Below, piece by piece: positions 4,635 through 28,020 of a stretch of 64,000 nucleotides of DNA. Origin of the DNA: Flaviaestuariibacter sp. GTDB taxonomy: Bacteria > Bacteroidota > Bacteroidia > Chitinophagales > Chitinophagaceae. Location of the stretch: positions 62,001-126,000 of the forward strand of contig JAOQAI010000017.1 of NCBI GenBank assembly GCA_025963645.1, written 5' to 3'. A program made the position numbers and the translations under genes. Numbering within the stretch: position 1 is the stretch's first letter; each line of letters begins with the position of its first letter. The notes under the pieces were generated by a model. It saw only the letters and a list, made by a program, of their open reading frames with translations. It made no database searches and was not told where the DNA came from.

Positions 4635-4707
4635 GGTGCGGTAGCTCAGTCGGTAGAGCAAAGGACTGAAAATCCTTGTGTCGCCGGTTCGATCCCGGCC
4701 CACACCA
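4635..4707 (+). tRNA. tRNA-Phe (GAA anticodon)
   Basis: A full cloverleaf can be drawn: acceptor strands 4635-4641 and 4700-4706, D stem GCTC/GAGC, anticodon stem AAGGA/TCCTT with loop CTGAAAA (anticodon GAA), T stem GCCGG/CCGGC with loop TTCGATC, discriminator A at 4707. CCA is not encoded. The acceptor stem has one C-A mismatch at the 5:68 pair; all other stems are perfect. A strong hairpin terminator follows at once, so this is a single-tRNA transcript. Confidence 0.95.
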
Positions 4708-4708
4708 C

Positions 4709-21644: not shown

Positions 21645-22079
21645 ATGAAACTCTCACTTGATTCCACTGCGCTTACCGATGGTTTCTTTGAAGAGACCCG
21701 CCTGCTGGGCATTATGGCACCTATGAAGGATTATCTTTTCTGCTGGCAACTGAACAACTTGCTAGGTGTTGATTTCCGCATTAATAATGAGATCGAGATC
21801 CAGCTGACTAAGAAAGGTCGCAACTACTTTTTTGCGGTGTATGAATACCCGGAAGCACATACCTGCCTGACCCACTATCTCTATAACAACCAATTTGACG
21901 GCGAATACCTGCTGCCTGAATTCAAGCATCTTGATTTTTTGTGGCTGCTAAAAGGCGATGAGGTGGAAGATGGCCGCATCCAGGAGCTGGTTCATTCGGT
22001 GAAGGATATTAAGGGGGTGCAACTCGTGTCGGAACTGACGAATGAGAAGATTAAGCACAAGGAGCACTTGGTGTTTTAG
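21645..22079 (+). CDS. IPExxxVDY family protein
   Basis: A 144-residue cytoplasmic protein of a family found in Bacteroidota and named for an N-terminal motif; here the motif region reads LLGIMAPMKDYLFCW. No enzyme motif is visible and its role is unknown. It starts 17 bp after the M28 peptidase and converges with the nucleotidyltransferase, leaving 5 bp between the two. Confidence 0.75.
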   Translation: MKLSLDSTALTDGFFEETRLLGIMAPMKDYLFCWQLNNLLGVDFRINNEIEIQLTKKGRNYFFAVYEYPEAHTCLTHYLYNNQFDGEYLLPEFKHLDFLWLLKGDEVEDGRIQELVHSVKDIKGVQLVSELTNEKIKHKEHLVF

Positions 22080-22084
22080 AAACG

Positions 22085-22579
22085 CTATTGGTCTTTGTTC
22101 AATTTTTCAATATCCCCGATATCTTTATTCCGCCCGCTTTTCTTCTTTGAAAGAAGTAAATCCGCAAGCCCGATAATTGAAATCTCAATATCATGAACAA
22201 CTGAAATTTCTCTTTGTTTATAATGCATGCTAAATCTATCAAGGCCAATTATAGAAGGCAGGAAATCAAGCGTAAATGAATCAAACTCATACCGGAAAAA
22301 AGACCGAAGCGGCTCAGGTGTTTTCTCTTCCCGAAATCGGGAAACATCTTGACCCAGATCTTCAAGCGCATCCAATAATTTAAAATAGTTTTCGTAGCTT
22401 GGGTTATACCAAATATCCAGATCTTCTTTTTCAAGCTGTTTGCCATCAATAGTAGTTGACGGCCGGTAATATCCATAAAAAGCCACAGCCGTTCCGCCAA
22501 CAATCATATATTGAACAGAACGAACATGGAGTGCCTTACATACAAGTAAAAGGTTATGAAAAGATTGGTCAGCGGCCAT
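22085..22579 (-). CDS. Nucleotidyltransferase-fold protein (AbiEii/DUF6036-like)
   Basis: A 164-residue protein with a minimal nucleotidyltransferase core: VGGTAVAFYGYYRPST followed by KEDLDIWY, i.e. the GG...R...DLDIW pattern of AbiEii-type and DUF6036 proteins. The second acidic position may be FDSFTLDFLP. Such proteins are often the enzyme half of two-gene toxin-antitoxin or defence modules, but also occur as orphans. The ATG at 22579 shares one base with the stop of a 54-residue ORF just upstream, so the pair is translationally coupled; an in-frame GTG directly before it is an alternative start. Confidence 0.65.
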   Translation of the reverse strand: MAADQSFHNLLLVCKALHVRSVQYMIVGGTAVAFYGYYRPSTTIDGKQLEKEDLDIWYNPSYENYFKLLDALEDLGQDVSRFREEKTPEPLRSFFRYEFDSFTLDFLPSIIGLDRFSMHYKQREISVVHDIEISIIGLADLLLSKKKSGRNKDIGDIEKLNKDQ

Positions 22580-22743
22580 CACTTAAGCCTTTTATCCTCT
22601 TTATCTTTCCGGACTACATTATTCTTCAATAAACTAATAAAGTCTTTGAATGTTTGCTGATTTGCCAATTTTGGCAGCGGCTTCCCTTTATAAGTACTTG
22701 CTTTTAGTTCACTAAAGTTCCTGAAGTGCTCTAAATGATTCAT
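22579..22743 (-). CDS. 54-residue protein coupled to the nucleotidyltransferase
   Basis: An open frame starting MNHLEHFRNFSELKAST and ending in a very basic tail (VVRKDKEDKRLK). Its TGA overlaps the downstream ATG by one base (TGATG), a strong sign that it is a real gene co-translated with the nucleotidyltransferase. It is hydrophilic and helical with no recognised domain. It could be an antitoxin-like partner; that is inference from the arrangement only. Confidence 0.55.
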   Translation of the reverse strand: MNHLEHFRNFSELKASTYKGKPLPKLANQQTFKDFISLLKNNVVRKDKEDKRLK

Positions 22744-22799
22744 TTTATTTCTTAGTATTTATTCGTCAATTAAAGCTATAACATTGGCCTGAATCTTAG

Positions 22800-23015
22800 C
22801 CAAAGCATTTTTTTTATTTAAATTTACAGCTAATTGGCAATGAAAAACAAAGTGCGGTTTTGGTTTCTTCTCAGGTTTCTTTGACAGATAAGCCATTAAA
22901 AATCCCCTCTCCTTCCTAATATTCCCAACTAGGTAATCTGGAGCTTAAAGAACTGGAGTGGGAATTCAGTGCAGAAACACTTAAGAAAAAAATTTATAAC
23001 TGTAAAGCTATCCCT
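22800..23015 (+). pseudogene. Possible degraded coding remnant in front of DUF983
   Basis: In frame with the DUF983 gene, the upstream codons read as plausible protein (SSQVSLTDKPLKIPSPS, TAA at 22917, then GNLELKELEWEFSAETLKK) with no other stop between 22800 and 23015 and no start codon. It may be a decayed gene end or chance. The rest of the 272-bp gap holds nothing I recognise. Confidence 0.2.
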
Positions 23016-23477
23016 ATGTGTGCTACTACCCGTGATGTGAAACCGAATTTTATAATAAGTCTATTGCAATCGAAATGCACCCGTTGCCGCAGAGGCAATA
23101 TGTTCCAGGTGAAGAATCCTTACCGGCTAAAAACCACCATGCGGATGCATGACACCTGCCCCGTGTGCGGACAACCCCTGGATATGGAACCGGGTTTTTA
23201 TTATGGCACCAATATGATCAGCTATGCGCTGGCAGTGCTTATCTGCGTGGTTACCTTTTTCCTGTGGTGGGCTATCATTGGTTTCTCGCTCAGTGATTCG
23301 CGTTTCTTCTGGTGGATCGGCATCAACGCGTTTTTGCTGATTGCACTGCAGCCGCCTCTGATGCGCATCTCCCGCACGGTGTGGCTGGCGTTCTTTGTAA
23401 AGTATAGCCCGAACTGGGACAAGGGCGATATCGTGAGCCGGTATAATGTGAATAAGGAGCATCAGAATAACTGGTAG
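23016..23477 (+). CDS. DUF983 membrane protein
   Basis: A 153-residue inner-membrane protein. It has an N-terminal zinc-ribbon pair (CTRCRRGNMF and CPVCGQPLDMEPGFYYGTNM), two transmembrane segments (about 70-92 and 100-120) and a cytoplasmic C terminus, matching DUF983. The GFYYG segment is family-typical. The function is unknown. Confidence 0.85.
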   Translation: MCATTRDVKPNFIISLLQSKCTRCRRGNMFQVKNPYRLKTTMRMHDTCPVCGQPLDMEPGFYYGTNMISYALAVLICVVTFFLWWAIIGFSLSDSRFFWWIGINAFLLIALQPPLMRISRTVWLAFFVKYSPNWDKGDIVSRYNVNKEHQNNW

Positions 23478-23480
23478 TGT

Positions 23481-23534
23481 TCTTTATCCCGGCTGTTTTC
23501 ATTCTAATGTTGCATAGAACAGTCGGGATAGAGA
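23481..23534. repeat. Imperfect hairpin after DUF983
   Basis: Two 17-base arms (23481-23497 and 23518-23534), differing at two positions that still allow G-T pairs, enclose 20 bases. There is no T tail, so it is at best a weak terminator or an mRNA 3'-end structure. Confidence 0.5.
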
Positions 23535-23595
23535 ATGAACCCATTGTCGTTGATATATTTACTTAATAGCTGTAGTTTTTAAACTTATTTTGTTT

Positions 23596-24249
23596 ATGAC
23601 AAGACGACAAAGAGCCTATCTTTTAATGGTGCTTCATTCACTTACAAACAGTGTTAGACAAGCGAGACTGAATACTGAAATGAAACATTTTGGTCTTTCA
23701 GACGATGAATTACAAACAGAACTTGCAAATGTTGAAAGTACATTTAATAATGGCATTTGCAATCTCAATACAAACCAATTAAATAATATACTTGCACAGG
23801 TCCATAACAACGGAGTAATCATTGAAAATATCAGAAGACGTTTAGAATTCTATGAAATAAACAGCGATTACCACGAAAATATCATACGATTCTTTCAAGA
23901 TTATGCACAAACTGACGAACCGATTGACGTTGGAAGTTTAGATACTGAATTTCGTGGAGTTCAGGTTGCATCAAGAGATAATTTCAACACAATCATTAAT
24001 CAAGGCTGGACAGGAGATTGGGATCTGAATCCTGATAATATTACCCCTAGAAGAGTGCAAGTCGCATCTATGAATGAAAATGGAACATTTCCCCGTGGTT
24101 TCTATCTTAATGCAGATATAATAGACATTCAACCAATTCAATATTCTGATAAAATAAGGTATAGGTTGTTTATCTCAGATCCAGTAATAATAAACACTGG
24201 AAACCGTAATGTAAAATTTATAGCCCAACCTGTACGATATATCAGATAG
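23596..24249 (+). CDS. AT-rich orphan protein of unknown function
   Basis: A 217-residue hydrophilic protein starting MTRRQRAYLLMVLHSLTN; a TTG two codons upstream is not needed. The N-terminal half looks helical and Asn-rich (LNTEMKHFGLSDDELQTELANVESTF), the C-terminal half beta-rich (residues about 120-217), perhaps a small binding domain. No motif is recognised. Base composition and codon use (many AAT, ATA, TTA) are clearly more AT-rich than the neighbours, suggesting recent acquisition. It stands alone and converges with nadA. Confidence 0.6.
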   Translation: MTRRQRAYLLMVLHSLTNSVRQARLNTEMKHFGLSDDELQTELANVESTFNNGICNLNTNQLNNILAQVHNNGVIIENIRRRLEFYEINSDYHENIIRFFQDYAQTDEPIDVGSLDTEFRGVQVASRDNFNTIINQGWTGDWDLNPDNITPRRVQVASMNENGTFPRGFYLNADIIDIQPIQYSDKIRYRLFISDPVIINTGNRNVKFIAQPVRYIR

Positions 24250-24290: not shown

Positions 24291-25304
24291 CTAAATCAAC
24301 CCCACCTTCTTACTGATCTCCAGCATCCTGTCCAATGAACCTTTAGCCTGCAGGCGAAGCGTTTCGTCCATAATTATCTCCGGTTGCTCGTATTTCATGC
24401 ACAGGTACACCTTCTCCAGCGTATTGCGCTTCATGTGTGGACAATCGTTACAAGCGCAATGATTATCGGGTGGTGCGGGTATAAGCGTTTTACCCGGAGC
24501 TTGCTTTTGCATCTGGTGAAGGATGCCGGCTTCGGTGGCTACAATAAATTCCTGGTTGGGGGTATTCTTCACATAGGCGAGTAGCTGGGTGGTAGATCCT
24601 ACAAAATCGGATATGCGCAGGATCGGTTCCTCACACTCCGGGTGCGAGATCAGCTTAGCCTGCGGGTGACGCACCTGCAACCTGGTGATCTTTTCTAAAC
24701 TAAATATTTCGTGCACCATGCAGGCGCCGTTCCAAAGCAGCATATCACGACCGGTTTCGCGGTTGATCCAGCCACCGAGGTTCTTGTCCGGCGCAAAGAT
24801 GATCTTCTGCTCTTTCGGGAAGCTTTCCACAATGGCTTTTGCATTGGAGGACGTGCAGATCACATCGGTCAATGCCTTGATGCCGGCGCTACAGTTGATA
24901 TAAGAAATGACTATGTGATCCGGGTGCTGCTCCTTGAACTTTTGAAAGAGCGGTGGGGGACAGCTCTCGCTAAGCGAACAACCTGCCTTAAAATCGGGGA
25001 TAACGACCTTCTTGCCCGGGTTTAGGATCTTGGCAGTCTCCGCCATGAAGTGCACCCCGGCAAAAACGATCATATCGGCGTTTGTCTTTGCCGCCTTTTC
25101 CGCCAGCCCTAAACTGTCACCAATAAAATCAGCAATGTCCTGTATGTCCGGCTCCTGGTATAGGTGCGCCAGTATCACGGCGTTCTTTTCCTTCTTCAGC
25201 TTTTCTATTTCCGCAAACAGGTCCAGGGTTGGATCAATGGCGCGGTCAAGAAATCCTTTTTCTAAAATCTCGTTTTGTTCGGCTATCAACATTTCCCCTT
25301 GCAT
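24291..25304 (-). CDS. nadA: Quinolinate synthase
   Basis: Condenses iminoaspartate and dihydroxyacetone phosphate to quinolinate, the first dedicated NAD ring precursor, using a [4Fe-4S] cluster. The 337 residues carry the family segments [41 protein letters not shown], a SHPECEEP motif, [13 protein letters not shown] and [12 protein letters not shown], which supply the cluster cysteines. No nadB or nadC is beside it. Its promoter must lie in the origin-like region that starts directly upstream. Confidence 0.96.
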
Positions 25305-25683
25305 ATAATAACTACTAATATTCTATATAATTATAAAAGAAAACCTACTACTATTAGGGCTGTGAATTAGTGGATAATGCACGACCGCTTTTTACTGACT
25401 GCAAATTTGATGCAGTTATTCACATAAAGTTTCCGGTTTTGCACAACGAAGTTATTGAAGGGTGGCGGAGCGCCGCTCATTTTCCACAGCGTTGTGGATT
25501 TCAGTCTGTGAAAAAATTTGATTTACATGGTAGATTTTCACTTTGTGAATTTCCTGCGGATAAATGAGGGATAATGCACAGGAAAAATTTTGCCGGCGTT
25601 GCCGGATTTCTTATTGACCATTCGTCCACGTTTCACTTCACCGTTCCACAAGGGTTATTCACATTCTTTTTTCGTAATTCACA
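25300..25683. other. oriC: Probable chromosomal replication origin (oriC)
   Basis: The 559-bp gap between divergent nadA and the PpiD-like gene is dense in DnaA-box-like 9-mers. Perfect TTATTCACA occurs at 25416-25424 and 25655-25663. One-mismatch versions of TTATnCACA occur at 25361-25369 (minus), 25369-25377 (minus, TTATCCACT), 25437-25445, 25480-25488 (TTTTCCACA), 25507-25515 (minus), 25555-25563 (minus), 25572-25580 and 25675-25683. Read on the minus strand, the first box is followed by GCCC, then TAATAGTAGTAG (25345-25356) and then an AT-only tract (25303-25340): the DnaA box, GC cluster, DnaA-trio and AT-rich order of a basal unwinding system. dnaN is 8 kb away. From 25684 to 25799 I see nothing further. 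Confidence 0.75.
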
Positions 25684-25799
25684 CCCTTTTGGGGAAACCG
25701 ATTACCTGTCCGGCAGCACATGGGATATTGTATTCTGTTAAAGGTGGGCAACCTGTCCTGAAAGCTTTAAAATATAGGGTTTTAGCCGTTTTCCACCGA

Positions 25800-25829
25800 T
25801 TGTTAATAAGTTCAATTCCCCTAAATTTG
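25800..25829 (+). promoter_or_regulatory. Promoter of the PpiD-like gene
   Basis: A TTG -33 element (25800-25802) and a TAAATTTG -7 box (25822-25829) are separated by 19 bp, the Bacteroidota sigma-A arrangement, 34 bp before the ATG. Confidence 0.65.
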
Positions 25830-25863
25830 CCCACTGTTTTAAAATAAAACCGAAACTTCACCT

Positions 25864-28020
25864 ATGTCAGTTATTCAAAGTATCAGGGACAAGTATGCTC
25901 GTATCGCTGTTATTGCCATTGGCGTGTCCCTTGTTGGTTTCATCCTGATGGATGCCTTCACCGGCCGCAGCAATATGTTTGAAGGCGGCGCCGATGAAAT
26001 AGGCGTGATCAATGGAAAGGAGATCAAGCCTGCTGATTTCGAAGCCAAAGTGAAAGCAGAGGAAGCGGCCAGCCAACAGCAAGGTTATACAGGTGATGCC
26101 GCCCGCCAGCAAGCCATTGAAGGTGTTTGGAACCAGGAAGTAACACAAACCCTGCTGGAAGAACAGTATGAGCAACTGGGACTGACCGTTAGTGCTAAAG
26201 AAGTGAATGATTACCTGTTTGGAGCCAACCCGCCCGCAAATTTGAAACAACAGTTTATTGATTCTGCTACGGGTCAATACAATGCCCAGGCAGCTCAGCA
26301 AAGAATAAACCAGATGAAAAGGGGAACTGCTGAAGAGCGTAACCAGCTAGCAATGTTTGTAGATGCTATAAAAGAGGAGCGCCGTCAAGCAAAATACACC
26401 TCCCTTTTTGCGAACACGCTTTACTTTCCGAAATGGTTGGTGGAAAAGCAAACCGCTGATAATAACCTGATCTCCAAAGTGGCGTATGTAAGTGTGCCTT
26501 ACGGTAACGATACCACTATTAAAGTAACCGACAACGAGATCAAGGAATATATCAATGCCCGTAAAAAAGAGTTCGAGCAGAAGAACGAGACACGTTCTAT
26601 CAGCTACGTCGTTTTCAATGCCGGCGCCTCTGCCGCGGATAGCGCTGCCGCAAGACAAGCCCTCCTGAGCCTGAAGCCTGCGTTTGACAGCACAAAAGAT
26701 TACGAATCTTTCTTAGCGCAGAACAATAGCGCCATGAGCTTCTACAATGGCTATATTTCTAAGAACGCTATGCAACAGCCGAATAAAGAGGCGATCTTAA
26801 GCGCACCGGTGGGTGTTACTTACGGTCCTTACCTGGATGGCGGACAGCGTCCCGTTTATGCTATGTCAAAGATCATTGATATGAGAACGTTACCAGATAC
26901 CGCCAAGGTGCGACATATCCTCATCTCTACCAGCCAGCGTAATCCGCAAACCGGGCAGATGACACCTATACGAGATGATGCTTCTGCCAAAGCCTTAGCC
27001 GATAGCGTGTACCGCTTATTGCAAAGTGGCAAGAGCTTCGACAGCCTGGTAGCTACCTTCTCCGAAGACCCGGGCAGCAAAGACAAAGGCGGTGTGTATG
27101 AAAATATCTCTACCGGGCAAATGACGGCAGCTTTCAATGATTTCGCATTCACGAACCCGGTTGGAAAGACAGGCATTGTGCCGACAGAGTTTGGTTACCA
27201 TATCATGGAAGTGTTATCGCAAAAAGGTTCTTCACCGGCGTATAAGATCGCTTATTTCGCCCGCCCGGTAGAAGCCAGCGATGAGACCGATAACACTGCC
27301 AGCAATGCTGCCAGCCAGTTTGCGGCTGATGCCAAAAACCTCGAAGCCTTTAATGCGCAGGTGGATAAATTAAGAGGGAGAGGCATCAATAAAATGACGG
27401 CAACCGATATAGCTGAGAACGGTTATAACATTGAGGGCCTGGGCGCTTCCAGGGCTCTTGTAAAAGAGGTTTTCAATGCGGATAAAGGCGATGTGTTGGC
27501 GCCACAGCGTATAGGCGAAGCTTATGTAGTAGCTGCCGTTACGGATGTGACACCTGCGGGTGTGCAAAGCGTGGCTTCTGCCAGAAGCACCGTTGAGCCG
27601 GTAATAAGAAACAAGAAAAAAGCGGCGCAGATAAAACAAAACCTGGGTACCATCACTACGCTGGAAGCTGCGTCTGCGAAAGTGGGTCAACCGATCCAAA
27701 CCGCTGATAGCTTAACGTTCAATGGCTCGAACCAGGCACTGGGCTTTGAGTCACGTGTGGTAGGTGCTTCTTTCAATCCGGCAAATAAGGGTAAAGTAGT
27801 TCCGGAAGCGATTGAAGGGCAAGCCGGCGTGTATGTGCTCCGGGTAGATGCCATCAGCGCTTTACCGGCAACGAGCGGTAACACCGCCGAGCAGCAAAAG
27901 GTAATGCAAATACAAGCCCGTCAAACCTTCATGAGCCAGATGCAAAGCGGTAACAACCCGATCATCGAGGCGTTGAAATCCTCTGCCAAGATCAAGGACA
28001 ACCGCTCTAAATTCTATTAA
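25864..28020 (+). CDS. Periplasmic peptidyl-prolyl isomerase, PpiD/SurA type
   Basis: A membrane-anchored foldase for outer-membrane and periplasmic proteins. The 718 residues have one N-terminal transmembrane helix (about 13-31), a SurA-like chaperone region (about 45-330) and a parvulin PPIC domain starting near residue 345 (KVRHILISTS, then FDSLVATFSEDPGSKDKGG and EFGYHIMEV). A second, degenerate parvulin-like region may lie at about 500-650. Length and layout match Bacteroidota PpiD proteins. It has its own promoter and terminator. Confidence 0.92.
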   Translation: MSVIQSIRDKYARIAVIAIGVSLVGFILMDAFTGRSNMFEGGADEIGVINGKEIKPADFEAKVKAEEAASQQQGYTGDAARQQAIEGVWNQEVTQTLLEEQYEQLGLTVSAKEVNDYLFGANPPANLKQQFIDSATGQYNAQAAQQRINQMKRGTAEERNQLAMFVDAIKEERRQAKYTSLFANTLYFPKWLVEKQTADNNLISKVAYVSVPYGNDTTIKVTDNEIKEYINARKKEFEQKNETRSISYVVFNAGASAADSAAARQALLSLKPAFDSTKDYESFLAQNNSAMSFYNGYISKNAMQQPNKEAILSAPVGVTYGPYLDGGQRPVYAMSKIIDMRTLPDTAKVRHILISTSQRNPQTGQMTPIRDDASAKALADSVYRLLQSGKSFDSLVATFSEDPGSKDKGGVYENISTGQMTAAFNDFAFTNPVGKTGIVPTEFGYHIMEVLSQKGSSPAYKIAYFARPVEASDETDNTASNAASQFAADAKNLEAFNAQVDKLRGRGINKMTATDIAENGYNIEGLGASRALVKEVFNADKGDVLAPQRIGEAYVVAAVTDVTPAGVQSVASARSTVEPVIRNKKKAAQIKQNLGTITTLEAASAKVGQPIQTADSLTFNGSNQALGFESRVVGASFNPANKGKVVPEAIEGQAGVYVLRVDAISALPATSGNTAEQQKVMQIQARQTFMSQMQSGNNPIIEALKSSAKIKDNRSKFY

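Follow-up and report, generated by a model that had tools for sequence, protein, structure and literature searches.

The intergenic gap at positions 25305-25863 of the window is very probably the chromosomal origin of replication (oriC) of this Chitinophagaceae bacterium, a site at which DnaA would bind and open the strands by analogy with characterized origins. The window, the whole stretch of 64,000 nucleotides that was analyzed, corresponds to bases 62001-126000 of contig C21 in an assembly of 2.57 Mb, comprising 21 contigs and 63% complete. The oriC assignment was already made in the original prediction and is now supported by a cluster of DnaA boxes, the part order of a basal unwinding system (BUS), recurrence of the site at nadA, and GC skew in three of five sampled relatives. 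The candidate gap had been described as lying between divergent nadA and PpiD-like genes, and domain searches bore out both identities and orientations:

24291-25304 (start 25304 or 25292), minus strand: nadA, quinolinate synthase (TIGR00550, 380 bits; PF02445)
25864-28020, plus strand: PpiD-like peptidyl-prolyl isomerase (SurA_N_2 and Rotamase_3 domains)

Among the best 80 of 574 confirmed named nadA loci, the closest belongs to a Flavisolibacter MAG (NadA identity of 87%). Niabella, Terrimonas, Chitinophaga, and Niastella, all members of the Chitinophagaceae, are among the named isolates that come next by NadA match. Elsewhere in the window, the GC content drops to 0.388 at 22001-24000, compared to about 0.47 across most of the window, and this segment is possibly acquired DNA. 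The domain scan returned only a sub-threshold DUF983 match for the ORF at 23016-23477 and no match for the ORF at 23590-24249. The sole tRNA detected in the window by ARAGORN is a tRNA-Phe (gaa) at 4635-4708.

The segment from 25361 to 25683 (323 bp) contains ten TTATNCACA-like boxes spread over both strands. Two are perfect (25416 and 25655), and eight carry one mismatch (25361 and 25369, both on the minus strand; 25437; 25480; 25507 and 25555, both on the minus strand; 25572; and 25675). The predicted tally of two perfect and eight one-mismatch boxes in both orientations is therefore correct against TTATNCACA but not against the strict TTATTCACA, for which only three one-mismatch boxes accompany the two perfect ones. 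Nevertheless, none of 2,000 dinucleotide shuffles of the segment reached this strict count. The second-densest 323-bp span of the window holds three boxes, and a Poisson model (lambda of 0.30, from the other 59 boxes in the window) gives a probability of about 1e-12, uncorrected for the number of spans, for ten or more in a single span. Chance clustering is ruled out by these shuffles together with the Poisson estimate. Across the whole window, 69 TTATNCACA-like boxes were counted, compared to 56.7 expected, and 69 was reached in 6 of 100 shuffles. As the overall count is hardly enriched, the unusual feature is how tightly these ten boxes cluster. Besides a tandem pair described below, the cluster consists of the following boxes, all identified by sequence match:

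25416-25424, plus strand: DnaA box TTATTCACA, perfect
25437-25445, plus strand: DnaA box TTTTGCACA, one mismatch
25480-25488, plus strand: DnaA box TTTTCCACA, one mismatch
25507-25515, minus strand: DnaA box TTTTTCACA, one mismatch
25555-25563, minus strand: DnaA box TTATCCGCA, one mismatch
25572-25580, plus strand: DnaA box TAATGCACA, one mismatch
25655-25663, plus strand: DnaA box TTATTCACA, perfect
25675-25683, plus strand: DnaA box TAATTCACA, one mismatch

Read along the minus strand from 25377 to 25305, the gap presents tandem boxes TTATCCACT and TAATTCACA, which have one base in common, followed by GCCC, the trios TAATAGTAGTAG, and an AT-rich tract. As judged from the sequence, this part order matches that of the published BUS, a feature absent from the original prediction. 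The individual elements are as follows:

25344-25377, minus strand: whole unwinding module, 34 columns (50.1 bits in a motif model that includes the window's own module)
25369-25377, minus strand: DnaA box TTATCCACT, first of the tandem pair, one mismatch (counterpart in relatives)
25361-25369, minus strand: DnaA box TAATTCACA, second of the tandem pair, one mismatch (counterpart in relatives)
25357-25360, minus strand: GC patch GCCC between the box pair and the trios (from the sequence)
25345-25356, minus strand: DnaA-trios TAA TAG TAG TAG (pattern found once in the window; equivalents in 16 of 16 nadA-linked loci)
25305-25343, no strand assigned: AT-rich candidate DNA unwinding element (from composition only, as the 40-bp windows with the highest AT content in the 64 kb)

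Under the criterion of the BUS survey (PMC8287927), three or more NAN trios must lie no farther than 16 bp from a DnaA box; a tandem box pair is the commonest arrangement there, and the spacing of the trios from the better box peaks at 10 to 13 bp. Here, four trios are located 4 bp from one box and 12 bp from the better one, the latter spacer falling inside that peak. Positions 25305-25346 are 86% AT and head the 40-bp AT ranking for the 64 kb. The tract had been called AT-only at its nadA end; it is indeed AT-rich, to the window maximum, but is AT-only for just one run of 15 bases. It abuts nadA because that gene starts at 25304 or 25292. The motif model finds a single module in the window and contig C21, and the exact short pattern occurs once in the assembly.

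Lack of conservation of the gap in related species had been named as a result that would speak against an origin. Instead, the gap and its module recur beside nadA in Chitinophagaceae relatives. Among 30 loci examined, the module is located upstream of nadA in all 16 where NadA and the PpiD gene lie no more than 1.5 kb apart (15 relatives plus the window). The other 14 have no NadA upstream of the PpiD gene, and 13 of these show at most two boxes per 350 bp at that place. Only L028 (from G071) departs from this, lacking a NadA match yet keeping the module at the PpiD gene. All 14 complete or few-contig relatives have the module upstream of nadA, 12 with the exact trio pattern and two (G103 and G109) with variants recognized by eye.

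A short module pattern matched 100 of 117 family genomes, with no match in the remaining 17, and its placement was followed in 150 listed hits from 80 of the 100 matching genomes. Since this pattern also matches by chance, as seen from a reversed control that was not empty, placement is what counts. Among the matches listed, 84 of 150 fall elsewhere than at nadA or the PpiD gene. Per genome, the module was placed at one of these genes in 66 of 80 (62 at nadA and four at the PpiD gene) and at neither in 14. The nadA-side matches listed lie 25 to 182 bp from the NadA match, 61 of 62 on nadA's strand; the opposite-strand match in G005 may be due to chance. In 14 genomes, G005 being one of them and again among the matches listed, the module is at nadA with no PpiD gene within 1.5 kb. 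The latter gene is about 3 kb away in five of them, 11 to 106 kb away in five, and at the far end of the contig numbering (G112) or on another contig (three) in the other four. Conversely, nine of the 117 genomes have no NadA match, and four of these carry the module at the PpiD gene; of the other five, three have listed matches only elsewhere and two have no pattern match. The nadA-only and PpiD-only placements indicate that the module can outlast the loss of either neighbor, though not always.

A motif model of the module was built from 24 nadA-linked or complete-relative rows, including the window's own. It excludes loci L017, L026, L053, and L058 (the last two without the exact trio pattern) and the second copy from each of G004 and G083. 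On the best 80 of 574 confirmed named nadA loci, some of which may share genomes with training rows, 51 scored at least 23.6 bits and 29 scored 4.0 bits or less, compared to a control maximum of -0.4. In the densest 350 bp, one-mismatch boxes average 6.4 upstream of nadA and 0.8 at the other locus end for the 51 high-scoring loci, and 2.3 and 0.5, respectively, for the 29 low-scoring loci. For the window's module, whose own row is in the model, the score of 50.1 bits contrasts with 0.8 for the next site in the window and 6.2 on contig C21. Across 2.12 Mb of sampled relatives, a single high score was obtained (52.3), corresponding to the G021 module, and the next was 17.0.

The low-scoring loci include Pedobacter, Pseudopedobacter, Mucilaginibacter, and Daejeonella, presumably all Sphingobacteriaceae, in which a diverged block such as AACACACTAATAAACAATAG is located 63 to 136 bp upstream of nadA, in the place that the module occupies in the Chitinophagaceae. 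This block was found at 17 of the 29 low-scoring loci (L284, L287-L289, L292-L297, L301, L302, L306, L309, L310, L314, and L315) and at none of 29 control ends, using a pattern written after viewing those loci. It may mark the origin of this sister family.

The motif TAnnTTTG, the Bacteroidota -7 promoter element, is given for B. fragilis and F. johnsoniae in PMC7366714. On nadA's strand, 32 of the 51 high-scoring loci carry an exact TAnnTTTG between 8 and 60 bases upstream of the module, compared to 2.25 expected from mononucleotide shuffles, and in 29 of those 32 it is 21 to 30 bases from the module. The window has a candidate of the same kind:

25402-25409, minus strand: CAAATTTG, TAnnTTTG with one mismatch, a possible promoter for nadA, positioned 32 bases upstream of the unwinding module

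This position of the motif implies that RNA polymerase transcribing nadA probably passes through the unwinding module. Such transcription fits an alternative in which the cluster titrates DnaA or has a regulatory role, comparable to datA and DARS, the DnaA-titrating or regulatory sites of E. coli, or forms a nadA promoter under DnaA control, and replication truly starts at another site. Box clusters can indeed regulate promoters. However, titration requires neither trios nor an AT tract, and in four of the nine genomes without a NadA match the module is still found at the PpiD gene, where TAnnTTTG is absent from all four loci (L065, L068, L070, and L071, from G071, G055, G016, and G111, respectively). 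The other five of these genomes, with the module at neither gene, are neutral in this respect. Given also the skew switch at or near the module in three relatives, described below, we consider a titration or promoter site unlikely. A riboswitch or other RNA element in the leader of nadA would likewise account for a conserved block in what is probably a transcribed leader, but a search of Rfam with the part of the window from 20 to 32 kb gave no match in the gap and one sub-threshold match outside it. Moreover, the block fits DnaA boxes and trios and is kept in four genomes without a NadA match, leaving this explanation scarcely credible. A riboswitch or pure nadA regulation as the sole function was rejected because the module stays at the PpiD gene in four of nine genomes without a NadA match. 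The favored reading remains a chromosomal origin next to nadA.

GC skew, proposed earlier as a check on the origin, was sampled in five single-contig relatives (G021, G115, G109, G004, and G083), each covered by 20 stretches of 20 kb. Possible origins were placed on a grid of 10-kb steps, with the terminus opposite, and scored against the module position. In G021, the mean skew equals +0.056 to the right and -0.076 to the left of the module (p 0.0002). The switch falls between 0.51 and 0.68 Mb in the coarse samples, and a finer 80-kb stretch puts the local cumulative minimum at 637.5 to 640.0 kb, within about 3 kb of the module at 640.2 kb. The corresponding values are +0.056 and -0.035 for G115 (p 0.0003) and +0.045 and -0.030 for G109 (p 0.0002); in each of these three genomes, about 5% of grid positions fit as well as the module. 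The best-fitting interval in G109 is 76 kb from the module, a distance smaller than the sample spacing of 140 kb. G004, a complete genome of the same genus, has weak skew (p 0.076); 25% of grid positions do equally well there, and the best origin is 661 kb away. In G083, 35% of positions are as good as the module, and neither of these two genomes offers usable skew. Third-position GC skew agrees in G021, G115, and G109 but not in G004 and G083, and none of the five shows significant gene-strand bias. The check thus came out positive in three of five complete relatives, with a sign switch at or near the module, but not on the window's own contig: GC and AT skew across contig C21 and the window are weak and irregular, with no switch at the site, in an assembly of 21 contigs that is 63% complete. 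Consequently, skew supports the homologous site in relatives and not the site in its own genome directly. Beyond the window, bases 160001-180000 of contig C21 (G000) display a strong local skew (GC, -0.097; AT, -0.092) unlike their surroundings.

The origin was also predicted to have no dnaA beside it, and this proved right. The dnaA gene of the genome itself is on another contig (G000:C1), where it encodes a 477-amino-acid DnaA (6e-60), and in the five sampled relatives dnaA lies 0.4 to 1.8 Mb from the module. In G021, it is found at G021:C1:2539354, 1.44 Mb from the module out of a possible maximum of 1.67 Mb on a 3.34-Mb chromosome, and is nearer to the presumed terminus than to the origin. 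Predictions of origins usually assume adjacency to dnaA by default, as described in PMC10225481, which would favor an origin at dnaA with a secondary cluster at nadA. Skew in G083 leans the same way, with a difference of +0.015 at dnaA and +0.007 at the module, neither being prominent. However, no module was present at any of 15 dnaA loci searched over 1.5 kb on each side (one shorter, at a contig end), the best score being 1.3 bits, and these loci have at most four one-mismatch boxes per 330 bp. At dnaA, the skew difference has the wrong sign in G021 (-0.080), G115 (-0.042), and G004 (-0.004), and in G109 it is smaller than at the module (+0.056 versus +0.075). In addition, a Prevotella genome paper, citing DoriC, states that Bacteroidetes oriC are commonly far from dnaA (PMC4755523). 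An origin at dnaA is therefore very improbable, and the nadA-side gap is retained as the probable chromosomal origin.

At this origin, DnaA made elsewhere on the chromosome would load on the ten-box array and anchor at the tandem pair (25377-25361), from which a filament could extend on the single-stranded trios (25356-25345). The AT-rich tract (25343-25305) would then open toward nadA, allowing the helicase to load and two forks to leave. This picture of DnaA assembly, strand opening, and helicase loading is drawn from studies of B. subtilis and other species, including the Gram-negative cases assayed in PMC8287927.

E. coli-type oriC consists of a box array plus an AT-rich element. It is similarly not located at dnaA, lying in the gidA-mioC gap according to the text of PMC10225481, and its neighbors differ from those found here. 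The B. subtilis BUS, as presented in PMC8287927, shares with the module its tandem DnaA boxes, short GC-rich spacer, NAN trios, and AT-rich tract in the same order. It differs in that the module here sits beside nadA, has tandem boxes that share one base (centers 8 bp apart), and is known from its sequence. Within the Bacteroidota, the predicted origins of Prevotella intermedia (PMC4755523) and Elizabethkingia meningoseptica (PMC8994065) are also away from dnaA. Both belong to other orders and are Ori-Finder predictions from DnaA boxes and skew, and the origin passages of the two papers name no neighboring genes and mention no trio module. Origins predicted by DoriC and Ori-Finder draw on the same types of evidence, namely, boxes, asymmetry, and neighboring genes, as outlined in PMC10225481. 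The present probable origin is of the known DnaA/BUS kind, and its distance from dnaA is of a sort already reported as common in Bacteroidetes (PMC4755523). Among the matches listed from open-licence PMC text, none places an origin at nadA, although a computed entry for a nadA-side origin may exist in DoriC or in supplementary tables. The gene is absent from PMC4755523, and in PMC8994065 and PMC7111523 the string "nada" is confined to the names of authors. In the main text of the BUS survey (PMC8287927), no Bacteroidota DnaA is among the assayed proteins and the word "Bacteroidetes" is absent, although its supplements may include the phylum.

Origins distant from dnaA are easily misplaced when dnaA serves as the default marker. 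In the Chitinophagaceae, the 34-column nadA motif offers a landmark when chromosomes are rotated, growth rates are estimated from metagenomes, or replicating plasmids are built, and the nadA-side module provides a test of the trio mechanism in the Bacteroidota. A more speculative idea, which we regard as possible but rather doubtful, is that the module lies inside the transcribed nadA leader, with a conserved promoter motif 20 to 30 bases upstream directing RNA polymerase across the box pair, trios, and AT tract. DnaA assembly and nadA transcription would then either exclude or help each other and tie NAD synthesis to replication initiation across the Chitinophagaceae, in an arrangement that, as the diverged block at nadA in the Sphingobacteriaceae suggests, would predate the split of the two families.
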